From Alcanivorax limicola (GTDB lineage Bacteria; Pseudomonadota; Gammaproteobacteria; Pseudomonadales; Alcanivoracaceae): a stretch of 64,000 nucleotides of DNA. A program made the translations under genes and the position numbers. Position 1 is the stretch's first letter. Every line of letters begins with the position of its first letter. Below are positions 5,651 to 33,393 of this stretch, piece by piece. Where the stretch lies: contig NZ_JAIOUB010000004.1 of NCBI RefSeq assembly GCF_019931215.1, forward strand, positions 124,001 through 188,000. Reading direction: 5' to 3'. The notes beneath the pieces are model-generated. The model had not been told where the DNA came from, did not search any database, and saw only the letters and a list, made by a program, of their open reading frames with translations.

Positions 5651-5830
5651 GGTGTGCTCCCAGCGTCATTAACTATCGGAACCAACTCTGAATTCGCATT
5701 GGCTACACCAGAGACTGGGCTTTGTATGACGGCAGGTCTATACGGCACGGCGTATCTTCGCGTTGTTTTACAAGCACGTTTATCAAAAAAGTAAAATGGG
5801 TAATATTTCCTGCACCCAGGCGGGGCGGGG

Positions 5831-30583: not shown

Positions 30584-31953
30584 CGCCCGAACAGGACGAC
30601 CTCTGGTTCCTGCCGCTGGGCGGTTGTGGCGAAATCGGCATGAACCTCAATCTGTACGGCCATGATCATCAGTGGCTGATGGTGGATTGCGGTGTCACCT
30701 TCTCCCGCACCGGGCAACCGGATCATTTCGGTGCCGACGTGCAGATGGCGGACCCGGCGTTTATCAGCGAGCGCCGGGAGCAACTGGCCGGTCTGGTACT
30801 GACCCATGCCCACGAGGATCATATCGGCGCCGTCGCCTGGCTCTGGGACCGGCTGCGCTGCCCCGTTTACGCCACCCGCTTCGCGGCAGAAGTGCTGCGC
30901 CGCAAACTGGCAGAAACCGGGCTCAGTGGTCAGGTGCCGATTATCGAAATTGCCGCCGGCACCACCCATCAGGTGGGGGTGTTCACGCTCACCTGGCTGG
31001 ACCTGACCCACTCCATCCCGGAACCCAATGCGCTGATGATCCGCACCGCCGCCGGCAACATCTTCCACACCGGCGACTGGAAACTGGATGCCGCGCCGGT
31101 GATCGGCGCCGGGTTTTCAGAGCAGGCGTTCAGGCAGCTTGGCGATGAAGGCGTGGATGCGATGATCTGCGACTCCACCAATGCGCTGGTGACCGGCCAC
31201 TCGGGTTCCGAAGGCAGCCTGTATCGCGGGCTGCTGGCGGCCATCGCTGATGCACCGGGGCGCGTGGTGGTGGCCTGCTTCGGCAGCAACATTGCCCGGC
31301 TGCATACGTTGGCAACCATCGCCACCGAATCCCGACGCTACATGGGCCTGCTGGGCCGTTCGCTGGTGAACATGGTATCCGCCGCTCGCGCCACCGGTGT
31401 CTGGGAAAATGACACCGTGCCAATCCAGCCTGCGCATCTGGGCTATCTGCCGCCGGAGGAAGTGCTGGCGGTCGCCACCGGCAGCCAGGGGGAGCCACGC
31501 ACCGCGCTGCACCGGCTGGCCGTGGATGCACATCCGGACCTGACGCTGGCCCCGGGGGATCGGGTGATTTTCAGCTCACGCGTCATTCCCGGTAACGAGG
31601 AGGCGGTCGCCAGCCTGATCACCCGGCTACAGCAGCGAGGCATTGATGTCGTGACGGCCGAGGACAGCCCCCGGCCGATCCACGCTTCCGGCCACCCCGC
31701 CAGCGAGGAGCTGCAAGCCATGTATCAGTGGGTGCGGCCCAGGCTGGCCGTGCCGGTGCATGGCGAGCCAGCGCACATGCAGGCCAATGCACAGATCGCC
31801 CGGGCGAGCGGCGTGCCACGGCAGCTGACGGGCCGCAACGGCGACCTGTTCATGATCGCGCCGGTCGCCGGCATTCGCCGCAACGCGGTCAGCACCGGCC
31901 GGTTGGGCGTCGTGCAGGGCCAGTTGAAACCGCTGGATAGACTGCCGCTATGA
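30580..31953 (+). CDS. Ribonuclease J-like metallo-beta-lactamase protein
   Basis: A 457-residue RNase J/beta-CASP family protein: LPLGGCGEIGMNLNLY at the start, the metal motif THAHEDHIGA (near residue 76), HTGDWKLD, the beta-CASP part with CDSTNAL and ACFGSNIARL, then SSRVIPGNE and VHGEPAHM. Bacterial RNase J enzymes process and degrade RNA. It is shorter than Firmicute RNase J (about 550) and lacks the C-terminal domain. Translationally coupled to the dehalogenase gene. Whether it is an RNase or has another phosphodiesterase role is not shown. Confidence 0.85.
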   Translation: MTPEQDDLWFLPLGGCGEIGMNLNLYGHDHQWLMVDCGVTFSRTGQPDHFGADVQMADPAFISERREQLAGLVLTHAHEDHIGAVAWLWDRLRCPVYATRFAAEVLRRKLAETGLSGQVPIIEIAAGTTHQVGVFTLTWLDLTHSIPEPNALMIRTAAGNIFHTGDWKLDAAPVIGAGFSEQAFRQLGDEGVDAMICDSTNALVTGHSGSEGSLYRGLLAAIADAPGRVVVACFGSNIARLHTLATIATESRRYMGLLGRSLVNMVSAARATGVWENDTVPIQPAHLGYLPPEEVLAVATGSQGEPRTALHRLAVDAHPDLTLAPGDRVIFSSRVIPGNEEAVASLITRLQQRGIDVVTAEDSPRPIHASGHPASEELQAMYQWVRPRLAVPVHGEPAHMQANAQIARASGVPRQLTGRNGDLFMIAPVAGIRRNAVSTGRLGVVQGQLKPLDRLPL

Positions 31954-31973
31954 CATTCATGCGGCACACAGAC

Positions 31974-32003
31974 ATGACACTGTCATCAGAATCGGGTTAC
32001 TCT
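31974..32003 (+). promoter_or_regulatory. Candidate promoter and operator of the DAHP synthase leader
   Basis: ATGACA (31974-31979) and TACTCT (31998-32003) are spaced by 18 bp, which would start transcription about 20 nt before the leader peptide. The -35 overlaps a 13-bp palindrome ATGACACTGTCAT (31974-31986). Assignment is inference. Confidence 0.4.
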
Positions 32004-32029
32004 TCTTTTCATTACTCGAGGACATTTTC

Positions 32030-32146
32030 ATGCAACGCCTGACGGTACTCCGAAACGCATTACACCCACGCAGCCGCCACACCTCGGCCACGTCAGCGTG
32101 CGCGTTCCGTTTTTATGGCTATTGGTTCAGCCACCGGCGCGCCTGA
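32030..32146 (+). CDS. Aromatic-rich leader peptide of the DAHP synthase attenuator
   Basis: A 38-residue open frame with a good ribosome-binding site (GAGGAC, 7 nt upstream). Residues 26-33 are FRFYGYWF: three Phe, two Tyr and one Trp in eight codons (32105-32128). Basic residues fill the rest and no protein family is evident. It ends 50 nt before a terminator that precedes the DAHP synthase gene. This is the layout of a translation-sensing attenuator: ribosomes would stall here when any charged aromatic tRNA is short. Confidence 0.82.
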   Translation: MQRLTVLRNALHPRSRHTSATSACAFRFYGYWFSHRRA

Positions 32147-32229
32147 CACCCCCGCAGGCGCCCCGGTAAACAGGGACGCCTGACCGAACATCCAAGAACC
32201 CCCGGTCGGTCCGTCCCCCGGGGGTTTTT
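32132..32229 (+). promoter_or_regulatory. Transcription attenuator with alternative hairpins
   Basis: The terminator is CCCCCGG (32199-32205) pairing with CCGGGGG (32218-32224), followed by a T-run. A competing structure pairs GGGACG (32173-32178) with CGTCCC (32212-32217) and GACCGA (32182-32187) with TCGGTC (32206-32211). An earlier hairpin pairs GCGCCTG, which overlaps the leader stop codon, with CAGGCGC about 9 nt later, giving the usual 1-2-3-4 arrangement. Pairings were read by eye. Confidence 0.75.
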
Positions 32230-32292
32230 ATTGCCCGGCTGTCACCGGGCTGGAGCACCAACGGTAAGCAATAACAGGAAAGGATAGTGACC

Positions 32293-33393
32293 ATGAGCGC
32301 TTCCCTGCACTCAGCAACATCACACTCGACATCACACGCAACATCACACACAACAACATCAGCAGCACACGGCATCCGTCACAGCCTGCGCCTGCCCAGC
32401 ATCGCCGAGCTACGCGCCCGGCTGCCACTGTCACCGGCACTGAGCCAGCAGATCCAGCGGCACCGCGATGCCGTGCGCGCCGTGCTGCGCGGTGAAGATA
32501 CACGCCTGCTGGTCATCGCCGGGCCCTGCTCGCTGCACGACCCCGCCGCCGCACTGGATTACGGCGCGCGCCTGGCGGCACTGGCGGACGAACTCCGTGA
32601 TTCGCTGCTGATCGTCATGCGAGCCTACATCGAAAAGCCGCGCACCACCGTGGGCTGGAAAGGCCTGATCTACGATCCGCATCTGGACGGTAGCCACGAC
32701 ATGATCGCCGGGCTGGACGTGTCCCGGCGCCTGTTACGGGATCTCGCCGGGCTGGGCCTGCCACTGGCGACCGAGTTGCTGCACCCGATGGCCGCCGGCT
32801 ATGTCGACGACCTGCTCAGCTGGGCTGCCATCGGTGCCCGCACCACCGAATCCCAGGTGCACCGGGAAATGGTCAGCGCCCTGAATCTGCCGGTGGGTTT
32901 CAAGAACAGCACCGATGGGTCGGTGAGTGTGGCCGTGGATGCCATGGGCGCGGCGGCACACGGCCATCGGCATTTCGGCGTCGATGCCCAAGGGCATCCG
33001 GCCATGCTGGAGGCGGCGGGCAATCCTGATACGCATTTGGTGCTGCGCGGCGGCAACGACGGTCCCAACTACGATGCCGCCAGCCTGGCCCGGGCGCAGG
33101 CCGCGCTGGCACAGGCCGGCGTCAACCCGCGCTTGCTGGTGGATTGCAGTCACGCCAACAGCGGCAAGAATCCCGACAATCAACCGGCGGTGCTGCGCGC
33201 GCTGCTGGCCCAGCGCCGCGCCGGGCAGCAGGCGATTGCCGGCGTGATGCTCGAGAGCCATCTGCAACATGGCCGGCAGTCCGCCGACCCATCCAGCCAG
33301 GGGAATCTCGTCTACGGCATGTCGATCACGGATGGCTGCCTCGGCTGGGACAGCACAGCAGCTTTGCTGCGGGAGATCAGTACGCAAGTGTGA
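32293..33393 (+). CDS. 3-deoxy-7-phosphoheptulonate synthase (class I DAHP synthase)
   Basis: A 366-residue AroFGH-type enzyme that condenses phosphoenolpyruvate and erythrose-4-phosphate, the first step of the shikimate pathway. Signatures are LLVIAGPCSLHD, MRAYIEKPRTTVGWKGL, the long SWAAIGARTTESQVHREM block, GFKNSTDG, LRGG and VDCSHANSGK. It is controlled by the upstream attenuator. The first 26 residues (Ser/His/Thr-rich) are created largely by three 12-bp repeats and are not a family feature. Which of the Phe-, Tyr- or Trp-sensitive isozymes it is cannot be decided here. Confidence 0.94.
   Translation: MSASLHSATSHSTSHATSHTTTSAAHGIRHSLRLPSIAELRARLPLSPALSQQIQRHRDAVRAVLRGEDTRLLVIAGPCSLHDPAAALDYGARLAALADELRDSLLIVMRAYIEKPRTTVGWKGLIYDPHLDGSHDMIAGLDVSRRLLRDLAGLGLPLATELLHPMAAGYVDDLLSWAAIGARTTESQVHREMVSALNLPVGFKNSTDGSVSVAVDAMGAAAHGHRHFGVDAQGHPAMLEAAGNPDTHLVLRGGNDGPNYDAASLARAQAALAQAGVNPRLLVDCSHANSGKNPDNQPAVLRALLAQRRAGQQAIAGVMLESHLQHGRQSADPSSQGNLVYGMSITDGCLGWDSTAALLREISTQV
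32317..32352 (+). repeat. In-frame 12-bp repeat at the DAHP synthase N-terminus
   Basis: ACATCACACTCG, ACATCACACGCA and ACATCACACACA follow each other at 32317, 32329 and 32341, encoding repeats of Thr-Ser-His-x. Confidence 0.9.

Follow-up and report, generated by a model that had tools for sequence, protein, structure and literature searches.

A probable transcription attenuator with Phe, Tyr and Trp codons in its leader peptide upstream of the DAHP synthase gene of Alcanivorax limicola

Does the short, aromatic-rich ORF upstream of the class I DAHP synthase gene of Alcanivorax limicola serve as the leader of a transcription attenuator, and could a single leader of this type sense Phe, Tyr and Trp together? 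Since DAHP synthase governs the entry of carbon into aromatics, it is a practical control point in Pseudomonas putida and in the relatives of Alcanivorax, and a response to any of the three amino acids is expected of a leader that has all of its aromatic codons in a stretch where read-through is permitted. We analyzed the region within a window of 64,000 nucleotides (the whole stretch of DNA studied; all positions are those of the window, and all features of the locus lie on the plus strand) and in related genomes. An attenuator should comprise a short ORF with a start codon and ribosome binding site 5' of the gene, a group of codons specifying the amino acids of the pathway, an intrinsic terminator between leader and gene, an exclusive antiterminator that is favored while a ribosome occupies the regulatory codons, and a downstream gene that acts in the pathway whose amino acids are sensed.

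Results

The leader ORF and the alternative RNA structures upstream of the DAHP synthase gene

Between an ORF that ends at 31953 and the DAHP synthase gene lies a 38-codon ORF (32030..32146) that starts with ATG, stops with TGA and reads MQRLTVLRNALHPRSRHTSATSACAFRFYGYWFSHRRA; the ribosome binding site GAGGA (32018..32022) is located seven bases 5' of the ATG, providing sequence evidence for translation of the frame much as the original prediction had described it. The predicted run FRFYGYWF, which combines Phe, Tyr and Trp codons, is present at 32105..32128 and supplies the ORF with a codon cluster for the amino acids of the pathway (the sensor block). Across the six frames of the window, only three of 106,438 stop-free eight-residue stretches contain six or more F/Y/W; FRFYGYWF is one, and the others are a mutually overlapping pair on the minus strand (5782-5808). 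The weak promoter-like sequence ATGACA-18-TACTCT (31974..32003), which begins at the first base of the region originally singled out, 31974, is a candidate promoter for the leader and was absent from a stricter promoter scan. A palindrome, ATGACACTGTCAT (31974-31986), overlaps the -35 element of this candidate; the TGACAnTGTCA palindrome occurs at the -35 position in four loci of the genus (the window, L031, L113 and L114) and is possibly a repressor site.

Six segments recur in the RNA of this and related loci: S1 lies in the Gly-Tyr codons, S2 (GGCGCGCCTG, 32136..32145) consists of the last leader codons with the first two bases of the stop codon, S3 (CAGGCGCCCCGG, 32155..32166) and S4 (GGGACGCCTGACCG, 32173..32186) follow the ORF, S5 (32199..32216) is the 5' arm of the terminator with its loop, and S6 is the terminator 3' arm. 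S3 has two possible partners, S2 (with a ribosome stalled upstream) and S4; S4 in turn pairs with S3 in the termination state or with S5 in the antiterminator, leaving S5 to choose between S4 and S6. The prediction of alternative hairpins including a true terminator held, in that a GC-rich intrinsic terminator hairpin with a U run lies between leader and gene (32194..32229) and a 12-bp S4:S5 antiterminator can form (32174-32178 with 32212-32216 and 32180-32186 with 32203-32209), drawing in part on bases of the terminator loop. The RNA from 32090 to 32235 folds at -66.5 kcal/mol (z -3.92), and 0 of 200 shuffled sequences folded as well.

The gene that follows (32293..33393) encodes, as predicted, the first enzyme of aromatic synthesis, a class I DAHP synthase (NF009395, 500 bits; TIGR00034, 433 bits; PF00793, 256 bits), placing it in the pathway whose products the leader would sense. 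Its translation may start at ATG 32293 or at the alternative GTG 32287. The N-terminus encoded by 32293-32373 is low in complexity and rich in Ser, Thr and His (SHSTSHATSHTTTS); many of the alignments to relatives begin past this stretch.

A conserved RNA followed by a terminator could also be a metabolite riboswitch, a reading that draws on a remark about synteny in the available part of Livny et al. We regard it as very improbable, since the conserved part lies within the ORF and the switching modeled below follows the position of the ribosome; moreover, scans for known aptamers returned no riboswitch family, neither for the window at the gathering scores, where a tRNA was the sole match, nor by E-value for 31900-32450, where Rfam family P15 alone was found.

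The aromatic leader accompanies this type of DAHP synthase in related genomes

The DAHP synthase protein was the sole criterion for choosing relatives (the best 80 of 185, together with the best 30 places in 57 genomes). The resulting 107 loci comprise the window, genomes of its genus, family and order, and records from Pseudomonas, Halopseudomonas, Serpens, Carnimonas and Acinetobacter; they correspond to L031-L139, with the window's own locus counted in, less L075 (gene at a contig end) and L112 (taken as a duplicate of L031, the one comparison to which duplicate removal was confined). Their DAHP synthases range in identity from 49 to 100%. For comparison we used 38 genes, 46-52% identical, which are either paralogues from within the family of the window or DAHP synthases from other families, with L199 (only 25 nt of upstream sequence) and L215 (the same gene as L139) left out; L140 (50% identical) is outside the 107, and the same gene appears among the 38 as L211, with a score below 5.

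At all 107 loci, an ORF in which some stretch of eight residues holds five or more F/Y/W was found within 600 nt upstream of the DAHP synthase gene, and at 96 of them the number is six; the opposite strand gave 3 of 107. Upstream of the 38 other DAHP synthases such an ORF was found once on the sense strand (L207) and twice on the other strand. Except in Acinetobacter and L139, the leaders nearly always have an (F/Y)-rich stretch followed by GYWFS, and their N-terminal halves drift. Thus, the leader frame, whose lack of conservation would have spoken against the original prediction, accompanies the gene throughout the 107 loci, and the helices described below are 86-90% paired in 58 aligned sequences.

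Differently worded leaders precede DAHP synthase genes in other families of the order, for example EFFFGYYFSQ in L207 (genome G041) and WWFGYGFYFSQ in L139/L215 (genome G054). In Acinetobacter (L076-L110) there is mostly a tandem pair of aromatic leaders before the gene, for example MLKHTVNTNAYFYFWQY and MYTFNYSYFSKISWFYF, which are unlike the GYWFS leaders; in L079 and L101, visual inspection showed a U-run terminator after the first of the two.

For analysis of the RNA we assembled 79 distinct elements from 104 candidates, after setting aside 14 (places already present, and L139 and L140, whose type differs), L068 and L166 (which the terminator pattern failed to detect) and nine identical copies. 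Of the 79, 68 have a start codon in frame that is accompanied by a Shine-Dalgarno match of at least 4. The best promoter score 5' of the leader averaged 7.1 of 12, compared with 5.3 for mononucleotide shuffles, and reached 8 or more in 17 of 79 elements, compared with 9% of shuffles.

The core of the sensor block is conserved at the level of codons

Phe, Tyr and Trp codons all occur in the block of each of the 79 elements, where the constancy of W and F is partly due to selection because the element pattern demanded [YF]W[FY]. The core codons, GGG TAT TGG TTT AGC (corresponding to 32117-32131 of the window), are nearly fixed at synonymous sites among the relatives: GGG is used in 68/77, TAT in 76/78 for Tyr and TTT in 76/79 for Phe, compared with 12.8%, 20.6% and 9.1% for the same codons in DAHP synthase genes. 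The window's core carries GGC and TTC. Unlike the fixed core, codons -5 to -3 (counted from the Trp codon as 0) often swap Phe and Tyr. Fixation at synonymous sites argues for a role of the core at the RNA level; one guess would be a pause hairpin, UGGU-UUA-GCCA.

These patterns bear on the proposal that the ribosome stalls not on uncharged tRNA but through interaction of the GYWFS peptide with a free aromatic ligand and the exit tunnel, as in nascent-peptide arrest of the TnaC kind. In its favor, the Gly and Ser of GYWFS are nearly as fixed as its aromatic residues. This proposal nevertheless seems improbable to us: the near-fixation extends to the codons, which a requirement for the peptide does not need, the codons directly 5' of the core exchange Phe and Tyr, and residue order varies in the leaders of family f37.

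The element is related to the Rfam family P15

The original suggestion that such a leader may be undescribed in this lineage holds in part. Among open-access PMC papers, judged by title and the start of the abstract, we found no description of it as a leader, although an earlier prediction may exist, but the element is a relative of an RNA already in Rfam, where it is annotated as an sRNA. Positions 32104..32224 match RF00627 ("Pseudomonas sRNA P15") with 56.8 bits (E 8e-11 in the scan of 31900-32450; E 1.2e-10 for the whole genome). Because this score is below the curated gathering score of 70, the element is not filed as a P15 member and, as judged from its sequence, is a diverged relative of the family. 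The gathering score was attained in 7 of 14 relatives' loci tried, and a genome of the same genus (G003) scored 94.5 bits. When whole genomes were searched with filters that lose weak matches, P15 was detected in at least 27 of the 293 genomes from the order (E ≤0.001), of which 14 exceeded the cut-off, and in at least 11 of 369 drawn from the class (E ≤0.01), one of them above it; none of 14 control genomes matched. The tie to P15 of P. aeruginosa rests on the Rfam covariance model.

A DAHP synthase gene was present at 31 of the 36 loci from the P15 searches, and the aromatic run preceded it at all 31 (one of which is the window, while L168 and L176 are one place). Two of the genomes, both of family f207, lie outside the order. 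The five matches without DAHP synthase (L170, L171, L173, L174 and L175; E 3e-4 or weaker) were dismissed as chance; the aromatic run was absent from four of these and in L175 sits inside a 305-codon open frame.

The Rfam listing of RF00627 gives its type as "Gene", sRNA, and names neither a leader peptide nor a target, and the label "P15" is absent from the available main text of five papers on P. aeruginosa RNAs (PMC8297930, PMC9308961, PMC3460626, PMC8395346 and PMC3349714). The element could, accordingly, be chiefly a trans-acting small RNA, for which the ORF and the place before DAHP synthase are secondary. Such a role would agree with the filing in Rfam and with the near-fixed synonymous sites of the core (the TAT and TTT counts given above), which imply constraint on the RNA itself. 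It would leave unexplained why 31 of 36 loci precede DAHP synthase, all with the aromatic run and the remaining five being weak matches, and why the modeled switch tracks the position of the ribosome, and we therefore think it has little probability. Under the attenuator reading that we prefer, the short terminated RNA would be what Pseudomonas catalogues call "sRNA P15".

Covariation provides partial support for the alternative helices

The helices were evaluated in an alignment (A1) of 58 of the 79 elements, in which L126, L127, L133, L135 and L136 are apparently one column off in the terminator and hence partly counted as unpaired. For S2:S3, 86.6% of cells were paired and the covariation score was 0.080 compared with 0.035 for shuffled alignments; sliding the helix by -2 columns gave an equal covariation score with fewer pairs. 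S4:S5 was 86.1% paired (covariation 0.143 vs 0.116 shuffled) and S3:S4 together with the terminator 89.8% paired (0.076 vs 0.037), the terminator stem including a C-G to A-U change at one pair in 17 of 58 rows. By itself S3:S4, which is almost invariant, was 85.9% paired without covariation (0.015 vs 0.012; 54 of 500 shuffles as high). The covariation check proposed with the original prediction therefore came out in favor of S2:S3, S4:S5 and S3:S4 with the terminator, and not of S3:S4 alone or of the S1:S1' hairpin. The latter, which pairs the Gly-Tyr codons with sequence after the stop codon and is part of the P15 consensus, scored 0.108 compared with 0.106 for shuffles and was dropped from the mechanism.

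Counts of pair types were never clearly above the shuffles (181, 457, 87 and 421 of 500 as high in four helix tests), and the shuffles leave the relatedness of the sequences in, so covariation is supporting and not decisive. The RNAalifold consensus of A1 contained the terminator and S3:S4; the antiterminator was missing from it, as expected because the structures are alternatives.

The modeled switch point coincides with the aromatic block

To relate structure to translation, we folded the RNA 3' of a ribosome before S6 is made and counted the expected pairs of S5 with upstream RNA in the 79 elements, taking the footprint to extend 13 nt past the A-site codon's first base. The mean number of antiterminator pairs was 9.0 at codon -6, 10.5-10.7 from -5 to 0 and 10.1 at +1, falling past the block to 7.3 at +2 and 5.7 at +5/+6. 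The codons yielding the most modeled antiterminator are therefore those of the aromatic block. A footprint of 10 or 16 nt moved the curve by one codon. The mean difference between the block and codons +4 to +6 was 4.71 pairs, compared with means of -0.19 to 0.88 when the spacer from stop codon to terminator was shuffled (20 sets); it exceeded 2 pairs in 68 of 79 elements and was 2 or less in 11, with small drops past the block in f37 and f207. In the Pseudomonadaceae group, stalling at -10 to -7 gave 6.7-6.9 pairs compared with 10.3 at -5, a dip that may reflect S1:S1'.

At the stop codon the result varied with the footprint (5.6, 7.9 and 9.5 pairs for 10, 13 and 16 nt), compared with 10.7, 10.5 and 10.1 pairs at Trp, and the excess of Trp over stop was larger than 2 pairs in 69, 43 and 14 of 79 elements, respectively. 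This dependence indicates that the positions favoring termination are the codons just 5' of the stop; as modeled, the switch requires either that S3:S4 pair during passage of the ribosome over S2 or that the footprint be short. Calculated energies behaved similarly: relative to the stop codon, a stall at Trp biased the fold toward antitermination by about 4.9 kcal/mol on average, with a shift above 1 kcal/mol in 75 of 79 elements and a largest opposite shift of 2.7. Since equilibrium favored the terminator in all 13 elements listed (among which L058 shifts in the wrong direction), timing or kinetic order must matter. In silico, then, an exclusive antiterminator is favored with the ribosome on the regulatory codons, in a manner that is footprint-dependent at the stop codon.

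For the window itself, the terminator was favored by 4.9 kcal/mol in the stalled state and by 8.5 at the stop codon. The minimum-energy fold of its stop state is antiterminator-like and not a plain terminator, making the window a weaker case than many of its relatives. Conceivably, its copy is a decayed attenuator that switches poorly, as the ambiguous stop-state fold, the GGC and TTC in its core and the P15 score below the cut-off would suggest. This seems rather unlikely given an intact 12-bp antiterminator, an energy shift of 3.6 kcal/mol, 9.9 antiterminator pairs at Trp compared with 7.0 at +4 to +6 and 7.6 at the stop, and a relative in the same genus well above the P15 cut-off (G003).

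Many relatives have a second leader upstream of DAHP synthase

Many relatives have a further ORF, L2 (such as MNYATYYRYDSFSAWRFTSLRSGQ...), located 3' of the P15-type terminator and 5' of the DAHP synthase gene. A TGGCG(A/C)TTTA-type pattern identified 59 distinct L2 stretches among 90 loci (one other-strand match was dropped), for example L032:1249-1459, L058:1373-1529, L131:1346-1523 and L165:1207-1408 (minus strand). L2 carries TGGCGATTTA (Trp-Arg-Phe), to which the long form adds GCC(A/G)CC(U/G)CCGA...GGUGGC. It was not found in any of the seven loci of the window's genus; no Rfam family matched it in the one Pseudomonas locus searched, L032, and visual inspection of the loci listed showed no U-run terminator 3' of L2. 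We rejected the idea that L2 masks the Shine-Dalgarno sequence of DAHP synthase, because accessibility of the start was flat (0.49-0.56) at all ribosome positions in 40 sequences.

Discussion

Our results suggest that this element is probably a ribosome-mediated transcription attenuator of DAHP synthase with a six-segment switch resembling that of his. The original interpretation as an attenuator is thereby supported. Its basis is sequence and calculation, which show a leader ORF with its aromatic block, a terminator, alternative helices and a dependence of folding on ribosome position, the modeled switch point falling on the aromatic block. Our confidence is tempered because the result at the stop codon changes with the footprint and S3:S4 lacks covariation. 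According to the proposed mechanism, with ample charged tRNA-Phe, -Tyr and -Trp the ribosome would clear the block and cover S2, so that S3:S4 forms, S5 is left free for S6 and RNA polymerase stops. Scarcity of any one of the three charged tRNAs would halt the ribosome on the block and allow S2:S3 to form, releasing S4 to capture S5 before S6 is made; the resulting S4:S5 would permit read-through into DAHP synthase. In the model the antiterminator is similar for every position in the block, so shortage of Phe, Tyr or Trp singly should open the switch, which would then act as an OR gate over three end products. We infer from this that three-way sensing and control would take place in vivo; the behavior of the Phe-Tyr-Phe leader of C. 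glutamicum aroF, described below, speaks against a response to every amino acid encoded.

These considerations provide a candidate mechanism and target gene for an RNA family that is labeled "sRNA" without a function in the sources consulted, and a second leader element shares many of the same transcripts with the P15-type leader. We give about even chances to the broader proposal that "sRNA P15" is what termination leaves of the leader of an old attenuator with Phe OR Tyr OR Trp logic at the entry to the shikimate pathway, present in the order that contains Pseudomonas and Alcanivorax as well as in one or more families beyond it, and that many genomes gate DAHP synthase twice in series by means of a second aromatic leader with an undescribed RNA element, both peptides being translated.

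Leader-peptide attenuation is already known, as is a DAHP synthase leader in Corynebacterium. As far as the open literature shows, what is new is the identification of P15-type RNAs as putative tri-aromatic DAHP synthase attenuators, the his-like switch and its spread. The his attenuator of enterobacteria also has six segments, and its stalled state pairs the early segments and blocks the terminator; it shares the six-segment layout with the window but senses a single amino acid, His, and has another target. The trp and pheA leaders have a four-segment layout and resemble the window in combining codons for the product with an alternative terminator, but each senses one amino acid and acts on a terminal branch and not on DAHP synthase. 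The ilv and thr leaders of enterobacteria are multi-amino-acid leaders.

According to the available part of PMC11802643, the codons in trpL and pheL are for the product of the pathway, one amino acid each. In C. glutamicum, the aroR-aroF system has a Phe-Tyr-Phe leader before DAHP synthase and ribosome-mediated attenuation (available parts of PMC4046766 and PMC11802643), and the leader responded to Phe and not to Tyr (PMC11802643). Thus, the statement that known leaders mostly sense one amino acid applies to trp and pheA and needs qualification for multi-amino-acid kinds, such as ilv, thr and the Phe-Tyr-Phe leader. In Shewanella, a cis-regulatory RNA predicted at aroF is listed as an "attenuator sensing tyr-tRNA" (PMC2659441); it is like the window in being a predicted motif 5' of a DAHP synthase gene, but it is a prediction, and no tri-aromatic leader is described in the available part of that paper. 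RF00627 has the same leader core, hairpins and terminator as the window, but is annotated as an sRNA gene whose Rfam listing names no leader peptide or target. C. glutamicum aroR-aroF is similar in that leader peptide attenuation precedes a DAHP synthase gene, and different in that it belongs to another phylum, Trp is unmentioned in the available parts of PMC4046766 and PMC11802643 and the response to Phe is not accompanied by one to Tyr.
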